Position numbers and translations under genes: made by a program. Shown piece after piece: positions 4,873-20,441 of a stretch of 38,444 bases of DNA (position 1 is the first letter of the stretch; every line of letters starts with the position of its first letter). Under the pieces are notes generated by a model. It made no database searches. It had not been told where the DNA came from and saw nothing but the letters and a program-made list of their open reading frames with translations. This DNA comes from an uncultured cyanobacterium (lineage in GTDB: Bacteria; Cyanobacteriota; Cyanobacteriia; Cyanobacteriales; Microcystaceae), in NCBI GenBank assembly GCA_903887375.1, contig CAISPN010000098.1:1-38444 (forward strand), in the 5' to 3' direction.

Positions 4873-6393
4873 ATGAAAAGAGAACTTAAAAATATTGTAG
4901 TGACCAGCGAAGTTATCAATAGAATTGAAAACGAACTATTTAGAGCTGGAATGCCCGTAGCAGCGCTGATGGAAAAGGCCGCTACAGCCGTGGCAAGCCG
5001 GATCAAACAACTCTATCCTAATCCCCAAAAAATATCCACTCTAGTAGGCCCTGGGCATAATGGAGGTGATGGCTTGGTTATTGCCAGAGAACTTCACCTA
5101 GCAGGCTACCAAGTATCAATCTATCTGTTTAATGAAACCGCCTCCAAAGACCTAACCAAACAACATCTAAAATATACCCAATATCTCAAGATCCCCTTAA
5201 ATCAATCAATAGAGCAGATTCTAGAAACAGATTTGATTATTGATGGTCTCTTTGGCTATGGACTCACTCGGCAAATCAGCGGCGAACTTTTCGAGCTAAT
5301 CAATCAGGTGAACTCTTCAAATATACCCATTGTCAGTATAGATATTCCCTCAGGTATCAATTCAGATACTGGAGAAACTATGGGCATTGCTATCAAAGCT
5401 AAACGAACCTTTTGTTTGGGCTTATGGAAAATTGGTCATTTTCAAGATCAAGCTTTGAGCAATCTAGGGGAAATAGAGCTAATTGATATTGGTATTCCAG
5501 AAGTTGCCCTAAACAATGAACAACACAACAAACTTATCTTTACAGATTCACTAGCCCGGCAATATCTGCCACTGCCTCGCAATCTGCTAGCTCATAAATA
5601 TCAACAGGGTCATTTACTTTTGATATGTGGTTCGAGCCGCTACGGAGGAAGCGCCATTTTAAGCGCACTAGGAGCTAGGGCTAGTGGAGTGGGAATGCTC
5701 TCTATCGCTGTTCCAGCTTCACTCAAATCCCTTCTAATTAGCCAACTGCCAGAAGCTTTGGTAATAGGTTGCCAAGAAACAAGCACTGGGGCAATTGCTG
5801 AGATTGAAAAGCTCGATCTGAGCCAATATGATGCAATTGTCTGTGGACCTGGACTGACGCTGGATGCGCATCAGTTAATTCCTAAAATATTAGAAGCAGA
5901 ATCGCCAGTAATTTTAGATGCCGATGGACTAAATGCGGTAGCTTTGCTTAATCTGGTTCCCTCTTTGATCTATCGCAACTGCCCAACTGTTTTGACCCCT
6001 CATTTGGGTGAATTCAAAAGACTCTTTAGCCAAATTGACAATCCCCAAAAAGATAGATTTAGTTCAGCTTTAAAAGCAGCTCAACTTTCGGGTTCAGTGG
6101 TTCTCTTTAAAGGAGCTAGAACTGTCATTGCTGATCCTCAAGGGAAGCTCTATTGCCTGGACAAAAGTACTCCAGCTCTAGCTAGAGGAGGGAGTGGCGA
6201 CATTTTAGCTGGCTTGACAGGAGGATTGGTAGCCCAATGTGCCAATAGAGATTTAGGAGCAATTGTCGCTACTGCCGCTTGGTGGCATGCGCAAGGAGCC
6301 CTACTAGCCCAGCAAGAAAGAACACAATTAGGGGTAGATCCAGTAACTCTCTCTAGTTTCTTGACAAAAGTACTATCACTTCTCAAGATATAA
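4873..6393 (+). CDS. nnr: Bifunctional NAD(P)HX epimerase / ADP-dependent NAD(P)HX dehydratase
   Basis: The enzyme repairs hydrated NADH and NADPH: the N-terminal YjeF_N domain (about 1-215) epimerises R- and S-NAD(P)HX and the C-terminal ribokinase-like domain (about 225-506) dehydrates S-NAD(P)HX using ADP. The epimerase nucleotide loop is GPGHNGGDG at 59-67, and the dehydratase carries LTPHLGEF and the GGSGD motif at 439-443. The open frame extends upstream to a TTG at 4858, but ATG 4873 is preferred because MKRELKNIVVTSEV begins close to the conserved helix. At 506 residues it matches fused NnrE-NnrD. It is followed by dapB after 27 bases and is probably co-transcribed with it. Confidence 0.95.
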   Translation: MKRELKNIVVTSEVINRIENELFRAGMPVAALMEKAATAVASRIKQLYPNPQKISTLVGPGHNGGDGLVIARELHLAGYQVSIYLFNETASKDLTKQHLKYTQYLKIPLNQSIEQILETDLIIDGLFGYGLTRQISGELFELINQVNSSNIPIVSIDIPSGINSDTGETMGIAIKAKRTFCLGLWKIGHFQDQALSNLGEIELIDIGIPEVALNNEQHNKLIFTDSLARQYLPLPRNLLAHKYQQGHLLLICGSSRYGGSAILSALGARASGVGMLSIAVPASLKSLLISQLPEALVIGCQETSTGAIAEIEKLDLSQYDAIVCGPGLTLDAHQLIPKILEAESPVILDADGLNAVALLNLVPSLIYRNCPTVLTPHLGEFKRLFSQIDNPQKDRFSSALKAAQLSGSVVLFKGARTVIADPQGKLYCLDKSTPALARGGSGDILAGLTGGLVAQCANRDLGAIVATAAWWHAQGALLAQQERTQLGVDPVTLSSFLTKVLSLLKI

Positions 6394-7837: not shown

Positions 7838-8704
7838 CTAATCTCTACTAGGTGTATTTATCCATTCACTTAAACTTTCTCCCAATAGAGACAATCCCGT
7901 CACCAAAAGAGTCAAAGCCAGTCCAGGAAAAAAAGTAGTCCACCATATTCCTACGGAAAGATCAGGCAGGGCTTCTTTGAGATCGTGTCCCCATTCTGGT
8001 ATCTCTTCAGGTAACCCTAAACCCAAAAAACCCAAACCACCTAAAACCAAAACAGCATCAGCCGCGTTGAGGGTAAAAAGAACTGGAATGCTTTGAATGA
8101 CATTAAAAAAAAGATAGCGAGTGAGAATATGCCAAGGACTTGCACCTATTGCTCTAGCGGCCTCGATAAATATCTCCGTTTTTAAACTAACTGTCTGATT
8201 GCGCACTACACGAAAATATTGGGGAATATAGGCAATGCTCACAGCAATAGCCACATTGAGAATTCCCCTTCCTAAAATAAAAACCAAAGTCACTGAGAGT
8301 AATAGTCCTGGTAAGGTATAGAGTGTATCCATCACAAAGAGGAAAAATCGATCAGCTTTTCCTCCAAGATAGCCACTAAGAAGACCTAAAGGAACTCCAA
8401 TTAATATAGAAAAGCCAGTTGCTCCTAATACTACCTGCAGAGCAGCCGAAGTGCCAAATAGAGTACGAGAAAAGACATCATAGCCTCTGATATTGGTGCC
8501 AAACCAATGCTTAAAACTAGGTGGAGCAGAGACTTGATTACTTAGCAAATCAGTTGGATCGAGCAAAATACCCCAACTTTGCAGTAAAGGAGCAAGCAAA
8601 ACTACTAAAACAAAGAACAAAGTTAAACAGATACCTATTGTAAATAGAATCGCTGAATGATCTCCTAACTTTGTCCTAATTTTTAAGAGTTTTGCAAAGT
8701 ACAT
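7838..8704 (-). CDS. dppC: Peptide/nickel-type ABC transporter permease (DppC/OppC)
   Basis: A 288-residue inner-membrane permease with one N-terminal helix (about 18-41), a periplasmic segment containing FGTNIRGYDVFSR (68-80, the conserved GTDxxGRDVxSR motif) and five further helices. The EAA loop that contacts the ATPase is at about 183-205 (EAARAIGASPWHILTRYLFF). Its likely partners, a DppB-like permease and an OppA/DppA-like binding protein, lie 12 kb away in another operon, and no ATPases of this type are in the window. The gene is divergent from amt1, and two NtcA sites lie in the shared spacer. Codons 68-78 are duplicated as an inverted repeat between the two amt genes (10458-10508). 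Confidence 0.93.
   Translation of the reverse strand: MYFAKLLKIRTKLGDHSAILFTIGICLTLFFVLVVLLAPLLQSWGILLDPTDLLSNQVSAPPSFKHWFGTNIRGYDVFSRTLFGTSAALQVVLGATGFSILIGVPLGLLSGYLGGKADRFFLFVMDTLYTLPGLLLSVTLVFILGRGILNVAIAVSIAYIPQYFRVVRNQTVSLKTEIFIEAARAIGASPWHILTRYLFFNVIQSIPVLFTLNAADAVLVLGGLGFLGLGLPEEIPEWGHDLKEALPDLSVGIWWTTFFPGLALTLLVTGLSLLGESLSEWINTPSRD
8471..8503. repeat. dppC segment duplicated in the amt1-amt2 spacer
   Basis: Bases 8475-8495 are identical (21 of 21) to 10462-10482; extending to 8471-8495 gives 24 of 25. Bases 8479-8503 match the complement of 10484-10508 at 23 of 25. This part of dppC encodes the conserved FGTNIRGYDVF motif, so it is the parent copy and the spacer copies are derived. 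Confidence 0.85.
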
Positions 8705-8742: not shown

Positions 8743-8765
8743 TGAGTTACTGACTTAAGCACAAT

Positions 8766-8791
8766 GTATTTTCAAATACAGAAAATATAAT
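8766..8791 (+). promoter_or_regulatory. NtcA site 2 and -10 box upstream of amt1
   Basis: GTA-TTTTCAAA-TAC at 8766-8779, embedded in the longer palindrome TGTATTTTCAAATACA, is a second perfect NtcA site. A consensus TATAAT follows at 8786-8791, only 6 bases away, whereas class II activation needs about 22. A weaker TAAAAT at 8808-8813 lies 28 bases away. Which -10 is used is not settled. Confidence 0.6.
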
Positions 8792-8817
8792 CAGAAGATC
8801 AGAAATTTAAAATATGG

Positions 8818-8973: not shown

Positions 8974-10401
8974 ATGCTTAAAAAGAGCTTGATTATTGCA
9001 GTACTGGCTATCTGTCTGGTTTTGGGTCTAGAAATGCATGATGCCTTAGCTGAAACTTTGACTAAAGCTCCTCCTAAGCCAGATGGAGGAGATACTGCTT
9101 GGATGCTGGTTTCTGCAGCCTTGGTTCTATTAATGACTCCTGGATTGGCTTTCTTTTATGGTGGTTTTGTTCGCTCTCGCAACATCTTAAACACCTTGAT
9201 GATGAGTTTCATCTTGATGGCCATTGTTGGAGTGACTTGGATTCTCTGGGGTTATAGTTTAGCCTTTGCTGAGGGCAACCCTTTTATAGGTGGACTACAT
9301 TGGTTGGGTCTCAATGGGGTCAACGCCAGAGATGTAGTTGGCTACTTGGCTAAGATGGCCTATGAGACAGATCCCAAGACCCCTGTATTGGACTCTTATG
9401 CTGCGACAATTCCCCATCAGACATTCATGATGTACCAAGGGATGTTTGCTATTATCACACCAGCTCTAATCTCTGGAGCAATAGTTGAGAGAATTAGTTT
9501 TCGAGTCTATGTCGCCTTTGTGCTGATTTGGTCAACCTTTATTTATTCTCCTTTAGCTCATATGGTTTGGGGTAAAGGCGGTTTTCTTGGGCTTTATGGT
9601 GGCTTGGGCGCGTTGGATTTTGCCGGCGGAACAGTTGTACACATCAGCTCTGGTGTTTCAGCTTTAGTTGCGGCCATACTTCTCAAACCACGCCGAGCCC
9701 ATCCCCATAATCTCTCTTCTCCCCATAATGTTCCCTTTATTTTGTTAGGAGCAGGATTGCTCTGGTTCGGTTGGTTTGGTTTTAACGGTGGAAGCGCTCT
9801 GGCGGTTCAAGATTCTTCAGGGATGTCAGTAGCCACTGTAGCGTTTGTAGCTACTAACACAGCAGCGGCGGCGGCTGCCGTAGTTTGGTTAATCTTAGAA
9901 TGGGCACTGAGAGGCCATCCCACAGCGGTTGGTATGGCTACAGGCGCTGTAGCTGGTTTGGTGGGAATTACTCCTGCAGCAGGCTTTGTAGATCCTATCG
10001 GTTCAATTTTAATTGGGGCAATCACTGCAACAGTTTGCTTTTTTGCTGTGAGCTTCAAAAGTAAATTGGGAATCGATGATGCTCTAGATACCTTCCCAGT
10101 GCATGGAGTTGGAGGAACAGTCGGAGCCATTTTAACTGGAATATTTGCAACCAAGGCAGTCAATGGTGCTGGGGCTGATGGTCTCTTACATGGTAATCCT
10201 GGACAGGTTTGGATCCAGATTGAAGCGGTAATCATTGCCTATCTTGTTGCCGGTATAGGCACCTTTGTGATTCTCAAAATTCTACAGGCTATCTTTGGTA
10301 CATTAAGAGTCAAGCCAGAAGAAGAATTTGAAGGTGTTGATATTTATGAACACGGTGAAGAAGGCTATGGTGATGAATTTGCCGGAGGCAAGACCATTTA
10401 A
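8974..10401 (+). CDS. amt1: Ammonium transporter, first tandem copy
   Basis: An 11-helix Amt/MEP/Rh-family ammonium channel of 475 residues preceded by a signal peptide (about 1-26, ending HDALA) as in bacterial Amt proteins. Functional residues are visible: FMMYQGMFA (151-159), the substrate-site Asp215 in DFAGGTVVH, and the twin pore histidines His223 and His377. The acidic C-terminal tail (EEEFEGVDIYEHGEEGYG) is where PII/GlnK-controlled gating takes place in relatives. The open frame extends to a TTG at 8908, but ATG 8974 is preferred because it matches the second copy and has AGGAGA at 8955-8960. Two NtcA sites lie upstream. The adjacent amt2 is a close paralogue. Confidence 0.96.
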   Translation: MLKKSLIIAVLAICLVLGLEMHDALAETLTKAPPKPDGGDTAWMLVSAALVLLMTPGLAFFYGGFVRSRNILNTLMMSFILMAIVGVTWILWGYSLAFAEGNPFIGGLHWLGLNGVNARDVVGYLAKMAYETDPKTPVLDSYAATIPHQTFMMYQGMFAIITPALISGAIVERISFRVYVAFVLIWSTFIYSPLAHMVWGKGGFLGLYGGLGALDFAGGTVVHISSGVSALVAAILLKPRRAHPHNLSSPHNVPFILLGAGLLWFGWFGFNGGSALAVQDSSGMSVATVAFVATNTAAAAAAVVWLILEWALRGHPTAVGMATGAVAGLVGITPAAGFVDPIGSILIGAITATVCFFAVSFKSKLGIDDALDTFPVHGVGGTVGAILTGIFATKAVNGAGADGLLHGNPGQVWIQIEAVIIAYLVAGIGTFVILKILQAIFGTLRVKPEEEFEGVDIYEHGEEGYGDEFAGGKTI

Positions 10402-10412
10402 TCTTTATTCAC

Positions 10413-10437
10413 GCTACCCACTTTTTTTCTAGGTAGC
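10413..10437 (+). other. Stem-loop 3' of amt1
   Basis: GCTACC (10413-10418) and GGTAGC (10432-10437) form a perfect 6-bp stem 11 bases after the amt1 stop. The T7 run is in the loop, not after the stem, so it is not a standard terminator; it may stabilise the 3' end. Confidence 0.35.
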
Positions 10438-10457
10438 TAACCACAAAGAACCCAATA

Positions 10458-10508
10458 AAAAACATCATAGCCTCTGATATTGTTTTGGCATCAATATTAG
10501 AGGCTATG
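10458..10508. repeat. 17-bp hairpin made of two opposed copies of a dppC segment
   Basis: Bases 10466-10482 pair with 10492-10508 (16 Watson-Crick pairs and one G-U) around a 9-base loop. The left arm with flank (10458-10482) matches dppC 8471-8495 at 24 of 25 bases and the right arm (10484-10508) matches the complement of dppC 8479-8503 at 23 of 25. A plus-strand RNA would present a left arm antisense to dppC mRNA. On the minus strand the stem is followed by ATG and six U, resembling a terminator. It lies between amt1 and the NtcA site of amt2. Confidence 0.8.
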
Positions 10509-10517
10509 TAGCTTAAT

Positions 10518-10542
10518 GTATTTTTAATTACAGAATTATTAT
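10518..10542 (+). promoter_or_regulatory. NtcA site and -10 box upstream of amt2
   Basis: GTA-TTTTTAAT-TAC at 10518-10531 is a perfect NtcA site. TATTAT (10537-10542) fits a -10 box only 5 bases later, the same unusually close spacing as at amt1 (6 bases). It suggests that amt2 has its own nitrogen-controlled promoter. Confidence 0.55.
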
Positions 10543-10561
10543 ACAAAAGGGGAGATAGTGA

Positions 10562-10594
10562 ATGGTTATTCAAATTTCAATATACCATGCTTAA
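10562..10594 (+). CDS. Possible 10-codon leader ORF overlapping the start of amt2
   Basis: ATG at 10562 opens a ten-residue frame (MVIQISIYHA) ending at TAA 10592-10594, in a different frame from amt2 and overlapping its ATG (10587). The only good ribosome-binding sequence here, AGGGGAGA (about 10548-10555), is spaced correctly for this ATG and 31 bases from that of amt2. It could couple translation of amt2 to a leader. No in-frame start for amt2 lies nearer. Unproven. Confidence 0.3.
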   Translation: MVIQISIYHA

Positions 10595-12014
10595 AAAGAT
10601 TTTTGTTATTCTGTTGCTGGCTACCTCTCTGGTCTTGGGTCTAGAAATCCAGGATGCCCTAGCTCAAACTGTAGCAGCATCTCCCCCTAAGCCAGATGGT
10701 GGAGATACTGCTTGGATGCTTGTCTCAACAGCTCTAGTTATGCTGATGACTCCAGGTCTGGCTTTCTTTTATGGTGGCTTTGTTCGCTCTCGCAACATCT
10801 TAAACACATTGATGATGAGCTTTATTGTGATGGCGATTGTCGGAGTGACTTGGATTCTTTGGGGTTACAGTTTGGCCTTTGCTGAAGGCAACCCATTTAT
10901 AGGTGGATCACAATGGCTAGGACTCAATGGTGTCAACGCCAGAGATGTAGTTGGTTACTTGGCTAAGATGGCATATGAAACAGATCCCAATATTCCTATA
11001 GTAAAATCTTACGCTCCGACAATTCCTCATCAGATCTTCATGATGTATCAAGGAATGTTTGCTATTATCACACCAGCTCTAATCTCTGGAGCAATAGTTG
11101 AGAGAATTAGTTTTCGAGTCTATGTTGCTTTTGTGCTGATTTGGTCAACCTTTATTTATTCTCCTTTAGCTCATATGGTTTGGGGTAAAGGTGGTTTTCT
11201 TGGAATGTATGGAGGATTAGGCGCTCTAGATTTTGCTGGTGGCACTGTTGTACATATCAGCTCTGGGGTTTCAGCGCTAGTTGCAGCCATACTTCTCAAA
11301 CCAAGGCTAGCTCATCCTAACAACATCCCTGCTCCCCATAATGTTCCTTTTATCTTGCTAGGAGCAGGATTACTCTGGTTTGGTTGGTTTGGTTTCAATG
11401 GTGGAAGCGCCCTAGCAGTTCAGGATTCTTCGGGCATGTCAGTAGCCACTGTAGCTGTTGTAGCTACTAACACCGCCGCTGCTGCTGGCGCACTAGTTTG
11501 GTTAATCTTAGAATGGGCATTGAGAGGCCATCCCACAGCTGTTGGTATGGCTACAGGCGCTGTAGCAGGTTTGGTGGGTATTACCCCTGCAGCTGGTTTT
11601 GTAGATCCTATTGGTTCAATTTTAATTGGGGCGATCACTTCAACGGCTTGCTTTTTTGCCGTGAGCTTCAAAAGTAAATCGAGAATTGATGATGCTCTAG
11701 ATAGCTATTCAGTCCATGGTGTTGGAGGAACAGTAGGAGCCATTTTAACCGGAGTATTTGCAACCAAAGCAGTCAATGGTGATGGTGCAAATGGTCTCTT
11801 ACATGGTAATCCTGGACAGCTTTGGATCCAGATTCAAGCGGTGATTGTTGCCTATCTGGTTGCCGGTATAGGTACTTTTGTGATTCTCAAAATCTTACAG
11901 GCTTTCTTTGGTACATTAAGAGTCAAGCCAGAAGAAGAATTTGAAGGTGTTGATATTTATGAACATGGTGAAGAAGGATATGGGGGAGAATTTTCTGGCA
12001 GCAAGAGGATGTAA
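10587..12014 (+). CDS. amt2: Ammonium transporter, second tandem copy
   Basis: A 475-residue paralogue of the preceding transporter, same length and nearly the same sequence; differences cluster in the signal peptide, the loops near 130-145 and 240-252, and the last residues. Asp215, His223 and His377 are conserved, so it should conduct ammonium across the inner membrane. The signal peptide ends near QDALA. Several stretches, such as 11055-11124, are base-for-base identical to amt1, pointing to recent duplication or gene conversion. The start ATG has no own ribosome-binding site; a leader ORF overlaps it. An NtcA site lies 56 bases upstream, and a hairpin derived from dppC just before that. 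A possible terminator follows at 12041. Confidence 0.96.
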   Translation: MLKKIFVILLLATSLVLGLEIQDALAQTVAASPPKPDGGDTAWMLVSTALVMLMTPGLAFFYGGFVRSRNILNTLMMSFIVMAIVGVTWILWGYSLAFAEGNPFIGGSQWLGLNGVNARDVVGYLAKMAYETDPNIPIVKSYAPTIPHQIFMMYQGMFAIITPALISGAIVERISFRVYVAFVLIWSTFIYSPLAHMVWGKGGFLGMYGGLGALDFAGGTVVHISSGVSALVAAILLKPRLAHPNNIPAPHNVPFILLGAGLLWFGWFGFNGGSALAVQDSSGMSVATVAVVATNTAAAAGALVWLILEWALRGHPTAVGMATGAVAGLVGITPAAGFVDPIGSILIGAITSTACFFAVSFKSKSRIDDALDSYSVHGVGGTVGAILTGVFATKAVNGDGANGLLHGNPGQLWIQIQAVIVAYLVAGIGTFVILKILQAFFGTLRVKPEEEFEGVDIYEHGEEGYGGEFSGSKRM

Positions 12015-12040
12015 TCTCTTTAGTGAATAATGTTAGATTA

Positions 12041-12071
12041 AAGGGTGGGTATTTGCTCACCCCTTATTATT
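12041..12071 (+). terminator. Probable terminator after amt2
   Basis: AAGGGTG (12041-12047) pairs with CACCCCTT (12058-12065) with one bulged C, followed by ATTATTT. The stem is GC-rich compared with its surroundings and sits between the amt2 stop and the ispH start. The T run is interrupted, so strength is uncertain. Confidence 0.45.
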
Positions 12072-12080
12072 TAAAAATTT

Positions 12081-13277
12081 ATGGATACAAAAGCATTTAA
12101 ACGCTCTCTGCATCAGTCCGAAAACTATCATCGTCGTGGCTTTGGCCACCAAAACGAGGTGATGGAGGTATTAAATTCAGAGTATCAAAGCTCCTTGATT
12201 AGCCAGATACGCAGCAATAACTATCAAATAGAGCGCGGAGAAGTGACTATCCGCCTAGCTGAGGCTTTTGGCTTCTGTTGGGGGGTAGAAAGAGCTGTAG
12301 CGATGGCTTATGAAACTCGTCGTCATTTTCCTAGCGAAAAAATCTGGATCACCAATGAAATCATTCACAATCCTTCAGTAAATGAACGTTTAAGAGATAT
12401 GAAGGTAAATTTTATTCCCTTCAATGGCGCTCAAAAAGACTTTTCAGTAGTTGGTGCTGGGGATGTGGTGATTTTGCCAGCTTTTGGTGCCAGTGTTCAA
12501 GAAATGCAACTTCTAGATAACAAGGGCTGCAAAATTGTCGATACTACTTGTCCTTGGGTTTCTAAGGTTTGGAATTCGGTAGAAAAGCACAAACGCAGCG
12601 ATTTTACCTCAATCATTCATGGCAAGTACAATCACGAAGAAACCGTCGCAACTAGTTCTTTTGCTGATAAATATCTGATTGTTCTTAACCTCAAAGAAGC
12701 TCAATATGTCTGTGACTATATTCTCAATGGAGGAAATCGGGATGAGTTTCTTGATAAATTCAAAAATGCCCATTCAGAAGGCTTTGATCCCGAGCTAGAT
12801 CTACAATATCTAGGAGTTGCCAACCAAACTACTATGCTCAAGAGTGAGACAGAACAAATTGGCAAGCTATTTGAAAAGACCTTAATGCAAAAATACGGTC
12901 CTAGTGAACTAGCTAAACACTTTATGAGTTTTAATACTATCTGTGATGCTACCCAAGAGCGGCAAGATGCGATGTTTGAGCTTGTCAAAGAAAAACTATC
13001 TCTGATGGTAGTCATTGGTGGCTTTAACTCATCGAATACCACTCATCTGCAGGAAATAGCTATAGACTACGGCATTCCTTCTTACCATATTGATAGTGAA
13101 AGCAGAATTGGACCAGGCAATCGCTTAGTTCATAAACCCTTGAGCAAAGATTTAGAAACGGTAGAAAATTGGCTTCCTTCGGGGCCTATAGTAGTAGGAA
13201 TTACCTCCGGAGCCTCTACGCCAGATAAAGTAGTAGAGAAAATCATTGAAGAGATTTTTACAATCAAAAATACCTAA
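12081..13277 (+). CDS. ispH: 4-hydroxy-3-methylbut-2-enyl diphosphate reductase
   Basis: The last enzyme of the MEP isoprenoid pathway; it reduces HMBPP to IPP and DMAPP using a [4Fe-4S] cluster. At 398 residues with an N-terminal extension of about 55 residues it is the plant/cyanobacterial form, longer than the 316-residue enterobacterial one. The three cluster cysteines are Cys66 (FGFCWGVE), Cys157 (DTTCPWV) and Cys288 (NTICDAT); the HEETVAT segment (185-191) holds the catalytic Glu. It starts at ATG 12081, just after the likely amt2 terminator, and its end overlaps the convergent HAD gene by 4 bases. No strong ribosome-binding site is seen. Confidence 0.97.
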
Positions 13278-15108: not shown

Positions 15109-16554
15109 TTAATGATTATAGTTAAAAACACCAAATGTATTAAACAAGTTTAGAACTGGATACAAAGGTGAAGTAATCAGAGAAAAAGTATCACTAAAGG
15201 CGGCTAAACCATTGCGGCTAATAATGATTACGTCATTGTTCAGCAATATGGGATTATGCTCATCATTAATACCTGAAGCTAAATCAACTGGGATGAGCCT
15301 TGTTGTAACCGTACCATTTGGGTTGAGACGAACCAGTTGTACTGAACCCTGGTCGGAGCGCATCTGGTTGAAGCCGCCTGCCATGAAAATTGCCTGGTTA
15401 AGTGATGTATTGGGAGGAATATCCATATTTCCGCCTGCGCCTTTGAGCTCACCTACCAAACTAATACGGATTTTGTCAGGAGCAAAATTCGCTGAAGCCA
15501 GAGTTTGCGCTTCTTTGGGGCTGATACTTTTAGATCTGGGAATAGAAATAGTATCACCATCTTGTAAAAGTATATCTTCATCCACGTTGCCAGATTGGAC
15601 TAAAGCCCAAAGGTCAACAGGTATGACTTGAACTTCACCAGTACGAGTTGTTCTTTGAACCTCTATATTGCGCACATCGGCCATAGGCTTAGTGCCACCT
15701 GCGTTGCGCAGAGCCATACTAATCCTAGGCGCTGTGGAGTTTGAAGAAATATTTCCCATAGAGCCAGTTGTGGTTCCCCCAGAATTACTAGTACCACCAA
15801 CAATATAAGTTCCAGGACGGGTAATCTCTCCAACTATGGCAACTGTAGCTCCTCGATTGGCTTGAATGCCGAAGTTAGCATTAGAGAGTTCTCTGACCTG
15901 TTTTTGTTCTATATTGCGTTTAGTTGGTATAAAAACTATATCTCCATCTCTCAAGGTGATATCTTGAGCTATATCTCCAGTTTCTAGAAGAGTTATTAGA
16001 CTGAGAGTATAAATCTGTTGTTTATTTTGAAATGACCTGATAACTTTTACAGTAGAGGCATCAGCAGCAGTCGTCAAACCACCTGATTGTTTAATAATAT
16101 CGGTTAGAACTGGGTATTTTCCATTAGTAGACCCAAGAGTATAGGTGCCGGGAGTATTTACTTCACCTGAGACACTAATAGACATAGGCCTAGGAGCAAC
16201 TACTATCACCGAAAGTATTGGCCTTTTGACAAAACGAGAATACTCCTTCTGAAGGAGAGCGGTCAACTGAGCAACGGTCATGCCGTAAACTTTAAAAGTG
16301 CCAACTAGAGGAAGAGCAATAGTGCCATCAATTAAAACAGCATATTCTCCTGAATAATCTTTGTTATCCAAAAAATCAACACGAAGGCGGTCACCGATGC
16401 CGAGAGTGTAAGGCGTTTCCTCATAGTCTGAGGTTGATTTTTCTACTACACTAGGGGCAATTCTGACAGAGCCGGCTAAAGCCTTTTCAGCAGTCAGCGG
16501 AATACTATAGAAAAGTAAGAGGGTGGCAACAGCAGATACAGGTCTATTAAACAT
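15109..16554 (-). CDS. Polysaccharide export outer-membrane protein (Wza-like, SLBB domains)
   Basis: A 481-residue protein with a Sec signal peptide (1-27, cleavage after ALA), an N-terminal Poly_export domain (about 45-125, YTLGIGDRLRVDFLD) and at least three SLBB beta-grasp repeats starting SVSGEVNTPGTY (131), AIVGEITRPGTY (about 240) and SLVGELKGAGG (about 365). It lacks a lipobox Cys, unlike E. coli Wza, as is usual in cyanobacteria. The role is to form a periplasmic/outer-membrane channel for exported polysaccharide. The partner Wzc-type kinase is not nearby. A Ser/Gly/Thr-rich insert is present around 255-270. It is divergent from the TIGR02450 gene. Confidence 0.92.
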   Translation of the reverse strand: MFNRPVSAVATLLLFYSIPLTAEKALAGSVRIAPSVVEKSTSDYEETPYTLGIGDRLRVDFLDNKDYSGEYAVLIDGTIALPLVGTFKVYGMTVAQLTALLQKEYSRFVKRPILSVIVVAPRPMSISVSGEVNTPGTYTLGSTNGKYPVLTDIIKQSGGLTTAADASTVKVIRSFQNKQQIYTLSLITLLETGDIAQDITLRDGDIVFIPTKRNIEQKQVRELSNANFGIQANRGATVAIVGEITRPGTYIVGGTSNSGGTTTGSMGNISSNSTAPRISMALRNAGGTKPMADVRNIEVQRTTRTGEVQVIPVDLWALVQSGNVDEDILLQDGDTISIPRSKSISPKEAQTLASANFAPDKIRISLVGELKGAGGNMDIPPNTSLNQAIFMAGGFNQMRSDQGSVQLVRLNPNGTVTTRLIPVDLASGINDEHNPILLNNDVIIISRNGLAAFSDTFSLITSPLYPVLNLFNTFGVFNYNH

Positions 16555-16631
16555 TGAGGCAGACTTTATTAACTCTGATGATCATGTCTTAGTATATCTT
16601 AATGGTATTGCGATCAGTTATTTAGAAGAAA

Positions 16632-16883
16632 ATGAACAAACGACAAAAATTCCCCTATTTACTGGGGTCCAAATGGACAGCAAAACAAAATACCTGGGGT
16701 TGGCGACATTTTCAAGTAATTAACCGCAGTAAACAAGGCCCTTGGGTATTCGCTGAAATGGTAGCTTCTTGTGATCCTAAGGTGCGCTTTTGGCTCAATG
16801 CCCAACAGCTTACAGAACAATCGGACTGGTTATCTGGCTGGCGAAGTTTAGAAGAAATTAGAGAAAAAGAACAAGATATCTAG
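16632..16883 (+). CDS. TIGR02450 family small tryptophan-rich protein
   Basis: An 83-residue protein with the family pattern GSKWTA (13-18), GWRHFQV (23-29), FAEMVASCDPKVRFWLNAQQL (40-60 region) and a Trp-rich end (DWLSGWRSL). It has six tryptophans and no signal peptide. The family is found in cyanobacteria, algae and some proteobacteria and has no assigned function. It starts at ATG 16632, 77 bases from the divergent Wza-like gene, and lies 43 bases before the SyCRP1 gene, so they may be co-transcribed. Confidence 0.9.
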   Translation: MNKRQKFPYLLGSKWTAKQNTWGWRHFQVINRSKQGPWVFAEMVASCDPKVRFWLNAQQLTEQSDWLSGWRSLEEIREKEQDI

Positions 16884-16926
16884 AATCAATCCAGCAAATG
16901 TTAGAATTGTTCTGCAAAGCCGAAAT

Positions 16927-17628
16927 ATGGACGAGATCCCTAGCATGATCCCTAAAGAACTAGATCAGCTAATTTCTATTGTCCCTTTCTTTCGAGATTT
17001 GCCACAAGATAGCTCTAAAAGAGCAACAGCAAATCTTGTAACTCGTCTCCATCCGGCTAATCGAGTGATTGTTTTGGAAAACGACTGGGGAGGGGCTGTC
17101 TACTTCATCATAGAAGGATGGCTCAAGATCCGTACCTACAATTCAGAAGGCAAAGAGATCACACTCAATGTCATCGGCAATGGTGAGGTTTTTGGTGAAA
17201 TGGCAGTACTAGATGAGGTTCCTCGTTCTACCGATGTGATTACTCTGACCCAGGCAAAAGTCTGTAGCATACCAGCTCAAGATTTTCTCCATCTTCTCAA
17301 TACAGAGCCTCAAGCTGGTATTAACCTGTCTCGTTTGATCACCAAAAGGTTAAGGCAGATTAACAGACGTCTCTGTGCTAGGGAATCAGATAGCCTTTCT
17401 CGGATAGTAGATACTTTACTATTTTTGGCAGAAGGTCAGGGAAAAAAACAGGACAATACTATTGTCATCCCTAACTTGCCTCACCGTGAACTCAGCAGCA
17501 TCAGTGGATTAGCTAGAGAGACAGTGACCCGCTCTTTGATTAAACTAGAAAAAAAGGGATTGATCAAACGAGAGTTGAAAAATTTAATAATTTTAGATTT
17601 CCATGGTTTAGAAAATCTAATAGGTTAA
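16927..17628 (+). CDS. sycrp1: cAMP receptor-type transcription regulator SyCRP1
   Basis: A 233-residue Crp/Fnr-family regulator very like Synechocystis SyCRP1, which binds cAMP and controls motility-related genes. The cyclic-nucleotide domain (about 17-130) keeps the phosphate-binding cassette: Gly90, Glu91, Arg100 and Ser101 (GEMAVLDEVPRSTDV), which contact cAMP. A C-helix follows and the helix-turn-helix is at about 187-215 (HRELSSISGLARETVTRSL). No Fe-S cysteines as in Fnr. The segment ENDWGGAVYFIIEGWLKIRT is a signature of this subgroup. It is followed at 24 and 12 base gaps by two small membrane-associated proteins, a likely operon. Confidence 0.93.
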   Translation: MDEIPSMIPKELDQLISIVPFFRDLPQDSSKRATANLVTRLHPANRVIVLENDWGGAVYFIIEGWLKIRTYNSEGKEITLNVIGNGEVFGEMAVLDEVPRSTDVITLTQAKVCSIPAQDFLHLLNTEPQAGINLSRLITKRLRQINRRLCARESDSLSRIVDTLLFLAEGQGKKQDNTIVIPNLPHRELSSISGLARETVTRSLIKLEKKGLIKRELKNLIILDFHGLENLIG

Positions 17629-17652
17629 ATAAATTGAACAAGGTTTAAAAAA

Positions 17653-17976
17653 ATGTCCAAACAAAATGGTGAGAGCTCATTTGTAATAGGCTTAATTGTA
17701 GGTGGAGTAGTTGGCACCGTAACTGGTATGGTCCTTGCCTCTCGCTCAAGCAGACAAACTCGTCAAATTCTGGACAAATCTGTTCAAGCGTTGCCAGAAT
17801 TAGCCGAAGATCTTTATAACAGTGTAGAATTGCAAGGTTCTCGTTTATCTAAATTGACTACCAAAAATTGGGATCGTTTCAAAGATGCCGTTACCGTGGG
17901 CATCCAAGCCAGTCGATCTGACTTGCCAGAGCCCGATGCACAAGATATGAAAGAACAACAAAAACATCAATCATAG
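17653..17976 (+). CDS. YtxH-like small membrane protein
   Basis: A 107-residue protein with one N-terminal transmembrane segment rich in Gly (about 11-30, GLIVGGVVGTVTGMVLA) followed by a basic stretch and an amphipathic region, the layout of YtxH-domain proteins. It is probably anchored in the inner or thylakoid membrane with the C-terminus in the cytoplasm. Function in cyanobacteria is unknown. The neighbouring gene encodes a DUF948-like protein; YtxH and DUF948 proteins are also paired in other bacteria, supporting a joint role. Confidence 0.85.
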   Translation: MSKQNGESSFVIGLIVGGVVGTVTGMVLASRSSRQTRQILDKSVQALPELAEDLYNSVELQGSRLSKLTTKNWDRFKDAVTVGIQASRSDLPEPDAQDMKEQQKHQS

Positions 17977-17988
17977 CTAAAAATTTCT

Positions 17989-18363
17989 GTGACAGAACCT
18001 CTATTTTGGCTCGGACTTTCTCTTTTGCTGGTAAGCGTAAGCTTAAGTGCGGCTTTGTTTATGTCGATTCCAGCTTTAACTGAATTAGCCAGAGCTGCTC
18101 GCAGCGCCGAAAAACTTTTTGATACCCTCAAAGAAGAACTGCCTTCTACTCTAGAGGCAATCCGCTTAGGAGGAAAAGAGATTACAGAGCTAACTGATGA
18201 GATAAATATAGGTGTAAAAAAAGCTACACAGGTCGTCAAGCAGATGGATGAAGGACTTGTTCACTTTAAAGAGCAAGGAAGCTCTCTAGCAAAGGGAACT
18301 GATCGTCTTTTTATAGGAATTAAGGCAGCCTGGCAAAGATGGAACTTAAATGACCCTAGTTAG
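17989..18363 (+). CDS. DUF948-like membrane protein
   Basis: A 124-residue protein starting at GTG 17989, 12 bases after the YtxH-like gene. It has one N-terminal membrane helix (about 4-26, PLFWLGLSLLLVSVSLSAAL) and a long amphipathic helical region (30-105) with heptad-like spacing, as in DUF948 proteins. Likely membrane-anchored with a cytoplasmic coiled coil. The last eight bases overlap the end of fabH on the other strand; both stop codons lie in CCTAGTTAG. Confidence 0.82.
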   Translation: MTEPLFWLGLSLLLVSVSLSAALFMSIPALTELARAARSAEKLFDTLKEELPSTLEAIRLGGKEITELTDEINIGVKKATQVVKQMDEGLVHFKEQGSSLAKGTDRLFIGIKAAWQRWNLNDPS

Positions 18364-19369
18364 AGCCACCCCAGCAAAAAATCGCTGCTCCCCAAGTTAG
18401 ACCAGCGCCGAAGCCAGAGATTGCTATGATATCACCTGGTTTAATTCGAGATTGCCTAATTGCCTCATCTAGAGCAAGTGGAATTGAAGCTGCTGAAGTA
18501 TTGCCATATTTAGAGATGTTGCTGATCACCTTCTGCTTGTCTAAACCTAAGCGGGTAGCTACAGAGTCAATAATGCGTTGGTTGGCTTGATGAAGAATCA
18601 ACCAGTCTATATCCTCTATGGTCAAATTAGATCTGTGCAGAGCTTTTTCAATCACCTCTGGTACCTTCTCTACGGCAAAACGATAGACTTCTTTGCCTTT
18701 CATATTGATGGTTTGATAGCTACCTGAACCAACACTGATATTTTCTAGTAAGTTATGGGTTGTCCCCATATAAGCAAGATTAAGAGAACTATTTTGAGTA
18801 CCATCACTACAGAGCTCAAAACCTAGAAAATTATCTTTTGTTTCGTGAGATTGACAGACAACTGCCCCTGCTCCATCAGCAAACAATACACAAGTGGTTC
18901 TATCTTCCCAATTTACCCAACGAGAAAGAACATCAGCGCCTATCACCAAGACATTGCGATATACTCCCTGACGGATAAACTGAGAAGCAGTCACCAAAGC
19001 AAAAACAAATCCTGAGCAGGCGGCGGTTAAATCAAAAGCAACAGCTCTTTTTGCCCCTATAATATTTTGCACTTGACAAGCGCTGCCAAAAAGATCATCA
19101 GGCGTAGATGTAGCCAAAATTATCAGATCAATATCCTCAGGAGTAAGATTTGCCATAGATATGGCATTTATTGCAGCTTTAGCTGCCAATTGAGCTAAAG
19201 ACTCTTGGGCTGAAGATACGTATCTTTCCTTCATCCCTGTGCGGGACTCAATCCATTCATCGGATGTATCAACAATGCTACTCAAATCTTGATTGCTCAG
19301 AACCTGATTAGGAACTGCCGAGCCACTACCGATTATTGTTAGTCCTTTCAAAGTTCTGCTCCCAGACAA
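18356..19369 (-). CDS. fabH: 3-oxoacyl-ACP synthase III
   Basis: Initiates type II fatty-acid synthesis by condensing acetyl-CoA with malonyl-ACP. The 337-residue thiolase-fold enzyme shows the complete Cys-His-Asn triad: Cys118 (TAACSGF), His260 (LHQANQR) and Asn290 (YGNTSAAS). The C-terminal SGFGAGLTWGAAI loop is typical. It lies 19 bases downstream of plsX on the same strand, the common plsX-fabH arrangement linking phospholipid and fatty-acid synthesis, although fabD/fabG/acpP do not follow. Its 3' end overlaps the convergent DUF948-like gene. Confidence 0.97.
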   Translation of the reverse strand: MSGSRTLKGLTIIGSGSAVPNQVLSNQDLSSIVDTSDEWIESRTGMKERYVSSAQESLAQLAAKAAINAISMANLTPEDIDLIILATSTPDDLFGSACQVQNIIGAKRAVAFDLTAACSGFVFALVTASQFIRQGVYRNVLVIGADVLSRWVNWEDRTTCVLFADGAGAVVCQSHETKDNFLGFELCSDGTQNSSLNLAYMGTTHNLLENISVGSGSYQTINMKGKEVYRFAVEKVPEVIEKALHRSNLTIEDIDWLILHQANQRIIDSVATRLGLDKQKVISNISKYGNTSAASIPLALDEAIRQSRIKPGDIIAISGFGAGLTWGAAIFCWGGSN

Positions 19370-19388
19370 AGTTGATTAGCTGATTTTT

Positions 19389-20441
19389 TTATTGCTGTTC
19401 AGAAGTCATCACTTTGTCTACTTGGTCGCTATTGGTGTAGTAGGAAGACTGAATACGCTCGGAAACACGTTTATCTACAGCTTCTTTGGCCAAGCGAACT
19501 GCATTGAAAATAGATGGGGCTTGAGAGCTGCCATGGCTGATGATACAAACCCCATCTACACCAAGAAGCAATGCTCCTCCATGCTCAGCGTGATCAATTC
19601 GCTGTCGGATACGCTTAAGATTTGGCTTGAGAAAAGATGAGCCTATCTTGCCATGCAATCCTTTTGGCAGCTCTTCACGAAAAATAGAAAGCAAAGCCTC
19701 GGCGATAGCTTCAGTAAATTTTAAAACAACATTACCAACAAAGCCATCACAGACAATCACATCAAATTTACCAGTTGGTACATCTCGCCCCTCAGCATTG
19801 CCAGCAAAATTTATCCTAGAGTTTGCTTCCAGTAAGGCATAGGTTTTTAAAGCTAGCTCGTTTCCCTTAGTTGGCTCTTCCCCAATATTAAGCAAACCAA
19901 TTTTAGGCTCTTCAATATCTAGAACATACTTGCTATAAATACTACCCATAATGGCAAACTGTTCTAAATATTTGGGCTTAGAATCTACATTAGCCCCTAC
20001 ATCTAACACTATCACTGATTTGTTAGCCATCATTGTTGGCAAAATTGCGCCGATTGCCGGACGATCTATCCCTTTGAGGCGACCAAGTTTGAGCAAGGCG
20101 GCAGCCATGGCAGCCCCTGAATGCCCAGCCGAGACGACGGCATCTGATTGGCCTTGTTTGACCAAATCCATACAGACATTTATAGAAGCCTTTGGTTTTC
20201 TTCGTAGAGAAGTCAACGGCTCCTCATCCATCTCTATCACGCCTTCAGAATTGACTATTTTAATTTTCTGTGAATGGCTATGGTGTTGTAGACAAGAGTC
20301 GATTTTCTCTTTATCTCCTACTAAAGTAACTTCCGCATCCAGTTCCTCGGCCGCTCTGATGGCTCCGGCCACAATTTCATCTGGAGCATGATCGCCGCCC
20401 ATAGCGTCTATTGCAATTCTTGCGCGAGTTTCGATTGCCAT
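19389..20441 (-). CDS. plsX: Phosphate acyltransferase PlsX
   Basis: Converts acyl-ACP to acyl-phosphate, the donor for glycerol-3-phosphate acylation in phospholipid synthesis; a peripheral membrane enzyme. The 350-residue protein contains the N-terminal signature AIDAMGGDHAPDEIV (10-24), LDVGANVDSKP and CDGFVGNVVLK in the expected order, and near the end HAEHGGALLLGVDGVCIISHG in the usual substrate-site region. Length is normal. It is the first gene of plsX-fabH; a 95-base spacer separates it from the cobH stop upstream, where no clear promoter can be singled out. Confidence 0.97.
   Translation of the reverse strand: MAIETRARIAIDAMGGDHAPDEIVAGAIRAAEELDAEVTLVGDKEKIDSCLQHHSHSQKIKIVNSEGVIEMDEEPLTSLRRKPKASINVCMDLVKQGQSDAVVSAGHSGAAMAAALLKLGRLKGIDRPAIGAILPTMMANKSVIVLDVGANVDSKPKYLEQFAIMGSIYSKYVLDIEEPKIGLLNIGEEPTKGNELALKTYALLEANSRINFAGNAEGRDVPTGKFDVIVCDGFVGNVVLKFTEAIAEALLSIFREELPKGLHGKIGSSFLKPNLKRIRQRIDHAEHGGALLLGVDGVCIISHGSSQAPSIFNAVRLAKEAVDKRVSERIQSSYYTNSDQVDKVMTSEQQ

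Follow-up and report, generated by a model that had tools for sequence, protein, structure and literature searches.

A hairpin between tandem ammonium transporter genes of an uncultured cyanobacterium, probably a template-switch scar copied from the adjacent permease gene

Introduction

Between amt1 and amt2, two tandem ammonium transporter genes of an uncultured cyanobacterium, lies a short hairpin whose two arms both match a segment of a nearby protein-coding gene, which raises the question of how the hairpin arose and whether it serves the genes around it. The preliminary description of this locus had regarded it as an inverted duplication of a segment of dppC, and had suggested that RNA reading past amt1 may regulate dppC mRNA by pairing with it. 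One-step hairpin birth by template switching has been presented as a recent answer to the old question of long perfect hairpins (PMC8794818), and the present hairpin, for which source, fold-back point and product are all readable, would offer a clean bacterial case. The hairpin was analyzed here in the window (the whole 38,444-nucleotide stretch examined), in the genome to which it belongs and in comparison with two congeners (G001 and G002). We infer that it was made by replication template switching, and it is probably a scar left during or after the amt tandem duplication. Such scars could help to date and dissect gene duplications in bacteria.

The Locus and Its Hairpin

The locus is arranged in the order dapB, a pentapeptide-repeat gene, a permease gene on the minus strand, amt1, amt2, and ispH. 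The permease contains the Pfam domain BPD_transp_1, and its best NCBIfam scores (182 of 300 bits for Opp2C and 128 of 483 for DppC) all stay below the respective cut-offs; thus, it can be assigned to the DppC/OppC/NikC type, but the gene name dppC itself is not established. The best named relatives of the amt genes, among the matches listed, were those of Trichormus, Anabaena, and Nostoc. The two transporters had also been described as flanked by NtcA sites. Boxes of the form GTAN8TAC are indeed present upstream of both genes (8766-8779 and 10518-10531), but this pattern occurs 14 times in the window (4.1 expected, and none of 100 shuffles reached 14), so NtcA binding at the two boxes is only suggested by the sequence. 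The pattern is self-complementary and over-represented in the window, and several of the 14 occurrences are located inside ORFs.

Repeat searches and reading of the sequence recovered all described parts of the 17-bp hairpin in the amt1-amt2 spacer, including arms that match the permease gene (Table 1). A direct repeat of 42 nt (8454-8495 versus 10441-10482, 81% identical) contains a highly similar core with 21 consecutive identical bases, and both a direct and an inverted copy of the permease segment were found, the latter (30 nt, 27 identical) being longer than the 25 nt originally reported for the right arm. The inverted copy begins at permease position 8508, continues across the 9-nt hairpin loop and ends at 8479, and its junction with the direct copy coincides with an inverted repeat of 5 nt in the permease gene. 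The only non-Watson-Crick pair of the stem is a G-U pair in plus-strand RNA. Starting from the amt1 stop codon, the spacer consists of 56 nt without recognisable homology, the direct copy, the inverted copy, 6 nt, and the amt2 promoter region. Since the segment in the permease gene codes for the motif FGTNIRGYDVF, which is also kept in congener G002, the permease gene is the source, as had been proposed. The source, the orientation of the two copies and their junction at microhomology can thus be regarded as established by sequence comparison.

Table 1. Positions of the hairpin, its source and the surrounding features in the window.
Feature	Position	Strand	Remarks
Source segment in the permease gene (7838-8704, minus strand), coding for FGTNIRGYDVF	8471..8508	-	Holds the inverted repeat ATTGG 8492-8496 / CCAAT 8504-8508
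NtcA-like box GTAN8TAC upstream of amt1	8766..8779	+	Pattern only
amt1, ammonium transporter, first tandem copy	8974..10401	+	
Direct copy of 8471-8495	10458..10482	+	24/25 identical; its final 17 nt form the left hairpin arm
43-nt hairpin	10466..10508	+	Loop 10483-10491 between arms 10466-10482 and 10492-10508; agrees with the fold-back prediction at 40/43 positions
Inverted copy of 8479-8508	10479..10508	-	27/30 identical; gives the loop and the right arm
amt2 promoter region homologous to amt1 upstream region 8763-8797	10515..10549	+	Contains NtcA-like box 10518-10531; separated from the hairpin by 6 nt; 1/1000 shuffles as high
amt2, ammonium transporter, second tandem copy	10587..12014	+	
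Terminator-like hairpin after amt2	12043..12062	+	Similar GGGTGGG...CTCACCC hairpin after the amt of congener G001

Chance origin was ruled out by shuffle comparison: the longest exact match between the spacer and the window outside 10301-12100 is 21 nt, and in all 2000 mononucleotide shuffles it was at most 18 nt, in agreement with the earlier view that the match is far beyond chance. A sequencing or amplification chimera was also rejected, because several bases distinguish the copy from its source, so that the two have diverged since. 

Duplication History

In congener G002, dapB, the pentapeptide gene, the permease gene and a single amt gene occur in the same relative order, and no hairpin is present in the 79-bp gap between permease and amt; hence, both the hairpin and the amt duplication are lacking. 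In congener G001, for which the first 5 kb of the contig were considered, the nearest amt has another amt-type gene as its neighbour, and no permease gene is found there. A search with the hairpin region gave no match above background in either congener. The dS value between amt1 and amt2 is 0.49, and those to the amt of G002 are 1.15 and 1.11, which indicates that, of the three genomes compared, this lineage alone underwent the tandem duplication.

The insertion is specific to this lineage as well, judging from the bases that the copies carry and from the absence of the fold-back repeat in G002. Eight source positions differ between the permease genes of this genome and G002, giving 13 scores across the two copies, of which 11 carry the base of this genome, one that of G002 and one neither (5/6 in the left and 6/7 in the right copy follow this genome). 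The permease gene of G002 has GTTGG/CAAGT in place of ATTGG/CCAAT.

The hairpin is thus located between the paralogs of a tandem duplication, and its two flanks behave differently: homology between the amt2 and amt1 promoters reaches within 6 nt on the right, and no homology was found on the left. Neither the 3' flank of amt2 nor the permease gene could be aligned with the 56 nt that precede the copy; against the amt1 upstream region, the best match of this part was a C/T-rich run of 10 nt, and 29 of 1000 shuffles gave one as good.

Origin by Template Switching

In the proposed mechanism, the strand being copied in the amt1-amt2 junction would have taken permease-gene DNA as template, and permease positions 8471 to about 8496 would have been copied rightward. 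A switch to the opposite strand at the ATTGG/CCAAT inverted repeat would then have led to copying from 8508 back to 8479, after which copying would have resumed in the amt promoter. Such a direct-then-inverted product is automatically a hairpin, predicted to have an 18-bp stem and a 7-nt loop, which would since have taken three substitutions.

The fold-back model predicts a product of 43 nt, and the observed sequence agrees at 40 of these positions (50 of 56 with the left flank included); one of the three changes produces the G-U pair and the other two open the innermost pair. When 43-nt products were compared with the edges fixed at 8479, seven switch points were tied as best (left copy ending at 8491-8497), which together cover the ATTGG/CCAAT repeat and one base beyond. 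The loop is part of the inverted copy, and a fold-back from the left arm alone would not yield it. A direct copy, a fold-back at a 5-nt repeat, an inverted copy and a return are what template switching driven by microhomology gives.

Neutral drift since the amt duplication would predict about 77% identity to the model product (based on amt fourfold identity of 0.68 and overall identity of 0.869, with one neutral and one coding branch), and an agreement of 40/43 or better has P 0.005, although this test is small and dependent on assumptions (P 0.0003 at an identity of 0.70 and 0.1 at 0.85). The hairpin therefore looks somewhat better conserved than expected had it been as old as the duplication, which favours a younger event or constraint. 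The feature is present in one genome only, and its origin may have been one complex event that made the duplication, a later hit on the junction, or a fold-back of a permease remnant left by a plain duplication.

The last option corresponds to a two-step history, in which a plain tandem duplication that started within the permease gene would have placed a 5' fragment of it between the two copies, and later deletions together with a separate local fold-back would have given the hairpin. The direct copy has the orientation expected from a tandem duplication, weaker similarity may extend to the left as far as 8454 (the 42-nt repeat mentioned above), and a second junction in the same genome (see below) fits a duplication trimmed on both sides. 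However, this history requires more events, permease DNA is absent from the remainder of the spacer, and the arms should be as diverged as neutral DNA of the same age, against which the drift test speaks; it is therefore considered rather unlikely in comparison with template switching.

Coding Scraps at Other Duplication Junctions

Scraps of neighbouring genes were also found, on sequence evidence, at another duplication junction of this genome (locus L154, contig C119), so that two of its duplications have such material at the junction. A minus-strand gene (16485-17117) is divergent to tandem paralogs at 17390-19057 and from 19180 onward. In the spacer after paralog 1, 80 nt (19058-19137) match positions 5096-5175 of locus L211 with 87.5% identity, and this stretch belongs to a separate ORF (L211 4906-5415, contig C119) downstream of paralog 2 and not to paralog 2 itself; about 220 nt between the end of paralog 2 and the matched stretch are missing after paralog 1. 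Directly adjacent follows a segment identical at 28/28 positions to 16825-16852 of the divergent gene, to the right of which the DNA matches the upstream region of paralog 1 (17374-17410, 84%), with about 520 nt missing. Homology of both flanks thus reaches the junction scraps, which are direct only and show no fold-back. Apart from the missing fold-back, the layout is that of the amt junction. The L154 junction is most simply read as a plain duplication that deletions trimmed afterwards, which speaks in favour of a two-step history for the direct copy at amt too. The paralogs themselves (17390-19057 and 19180-20000), which are membrane proteins, share about 92% DNA identity in the first 160 codons and 62-71% in the following 110, as if the front had been homogenised by gene conversion or the rest had diversified.

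A survey of spacers for short matches (at least 36 bits, word size 11, low-complexity matches dropped) was carried out in three samples. In this genome (41 sources, 798 kb, 329 spacers), five rows were obtained, comprising three short coding copies and a longer spacer repeat pair (L180). In genome G013 (20 stretches, 400 kb, 219 spacers), 11 rows were mostly longer or spacer-to-spacer repeats, and 47 nt of a spacer in one locus (L206) matched an ORF-internal stretch at 91%, so that scraps of this kind are not entirely absent from G013. A set of 80 mixed bacterial loci (770 kb, 394 spacers) gave nine rows, two of them short (34 nt in L132 and 21 nt in L124). Even with the copies of G013 counted as 0, the difference between this genome and G013 (3/329 versus 0/219) is not significant (P 0.22), so this genome is not claimed to be special in the frequency of scraps. 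The filter missed the inverted arm of the hairpin, whose longest exact run is 10 nt, and shorter words reveal it.

In the sample of this genome, coding scraps occurred in two of seven spacers between tandem paralogs (spacers of 40 nt or more; paralogs defined by at least 35% identity over at least 40% of the shorter protein) and in one of 322 others (P 0.001), or in one of six when the window was left out (P 0.04); these P values were obtained post hoc, with two slightly different ORF thresholds (70 and 80 aa). Apart from this, a segment of a substrate-binding-protein-like gene in locus L167 (contig C55) has a 24/24 direct copy (632-655 / 2090-2113) in a spacer 1.4 kb away, which no paralogs adjoin.

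Comparison with Known Mutational Systems

Template-switch hairpins have been described by Monttinen and Loytynoja (2022, PMC8794818), in which a single switch to the complementary strand gives a reverse-complement copy and hence a near-perfect stem in one event, and later substitutions decay the stem. The present hairpin is alike in that its arms are reverse-complement copies of one source; the events inferred there are local ones in microRNA and rRNA genes, whereas the present copy derives from a protein gene at a distance of 2 kb, in the setting of a bacterial gene duplication. At DNA breaks in yeast, very short inverted duplications, most of them 5-34 bp, are reported to arise by foldback at microhomology (PMC11724301). 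Templated insertions of that system similarly contain two pieces of one locus in opposite orientation, but the break was made there, and here only the product is seen, in a bacterium.

The Salmonella tandem inversion duplication differs from the present case, where no long inverted amt copy exists and just 43 nt of a neighbouring gene are involved. According to a model associated with Kugelberg in 2010, that duplication reportedly involves snap-back at short inverted repeats, and its junctions are trimmed later. Among the listed titles and beginnings of abstracts of the open-access literature, no report was found of fold-back scars at tandem-duplication junctions in bacteria.

Possible Roles of the Hairpin

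If the hairpin has any function, a local one at the 3' end of amt1 mRNA appears more plausible than control of the permease. In such a case, the duplication junction would have deprived amt1 of its terminator, and the stem-loop that arose there would end or protect amt1 mRNA and shield the amt2 promoter. Several observations are in line with this: plus-strand RNA of 10440-10530 has a strong predicted fold (-26.5 kcal/mol, z -5.3, and 0 of 200 shuffles as good), the terminator-like hairpin seen after amt2 and after the amt of G001 has no counterpart after amt1, the hairpin is placed directly before the amt2 promoter, and its conservation exceeds the neutral-drift prediction. However, by eye the amt of G002 is not followed by such a terminator hairpin either, and in the plus strand no U-tract directly follows the stem, the first five-T run beginning 12 nt further on (10521). 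The terminator scan covered loops of at most 8 nt, so the hairpin with its 9-nt loop was unlisted. In Synechococcus elongatus, most transcript ends are reported not to be canonical terminators, and the noncanonical ends are described as broadly devoid of strong structure (PMC13289151), which counts against this role and also makes the absent U-tract weak evidence either way. On the minus strand, a T6 run is located 3 nt after the stem, and no leftward gene that would need a terminator there was seen at the spacer. On balance, such a local role is unlikely.

A stronger form of the idea, that a functional RNA element was born in a single mutational step and then kept as the new 3' end of amt1 or as an insulator of the NtcA-type amt2 promoter, is distinctly unlikely. 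If true, the terminator would have been left behind amt2, and the better-than-neutral conservation would be a trace of selection on the hairpin.

Plant microRNA genes such as miR163 are described as arising by inverted duplication of their targets, and their hairpin arms, like those seen here, copy a gene with which they could pair (PMC5388894). An antisense regulator of this kind would consist of amt1 read-through RNA that pairs with permease mRNA and lowers its level under nitrogen limitation. Of the 25 bases of the left copy, 24 are complementary to permease mRNA, and the predicted duplexes are strong when self-folding is ignored (-34.8 kcal/mol for the isolated arm and -46.6 kcal/mol for hairpin and mRNA). 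Both partners are folded, however, and the advantage is cancelled because pairing must be paid for by unfolding: opening costs 17.4 kcal/mol for the left arm and 11.4 kcal/mol for the target, leaving a net value of -6.0 kcal/mol for the arm. The duplex prediction called for by the preliminary description gave a cofold gain of -8.4 kcal/mol for spacer and permease mRNA, which equals the background of 194 unrelated window segments (median -7.8, up to -21.7 kcal/mol), and the gain fell to -4.5 kcal/mol with the amt1 tail added and to 0.0 for the hairpin alone. In addition, the loop, which is the part free to start pairing, is in sense orientation to permease mRNA, the matched sequence lies some 200 nt into the coding region, and the hairpin is absent in both congeners compared. 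Unlike in plant genes of the miR163 type, pairing is therefore not favoured here, and the machinery by which plants dice inverted duplications is not known from bacteria. Control of the permease by antisense pairing is thus very improbable, and scars of this type caution against interpreting a spacer match to a neighbouring gene as a sign of antisense regulation.

Small palindromes often turn out to be repeats, but a mobile or dispersed element is vanishingly unlikely here, as both arms and the loop come from the adjacent gene, no Rfam family was found for the hairpin at the gathering threshold, and no further copy exists in the genome. In the 2.93-Mb draft (124 contigs), only the permease gene matched the hairpin region above background (E 2.1e-5, the next match having 0.26), and the 17-mer of the hairpin occurs, at up to one mismatch, in three places only, namely the permease gene and the two arms, so the earlier reading of the hairpin as something other than a dispersed repeat stands. 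A known RNA family was ruled out by the same Rfam scan, in which only a tRNA reaches the threshold. Among 18 hairpins in the first 438 kb (10 of them intergenic), the spacer hairpin is the only one with an arm matching elsewhere in the sample at E <0.001. An inverted repeat of 30 nt, imperfect (80%) and interrupted by a gap of 40 nt, was also observed near the 5' end of the permease gene (window positions 8596-8695).
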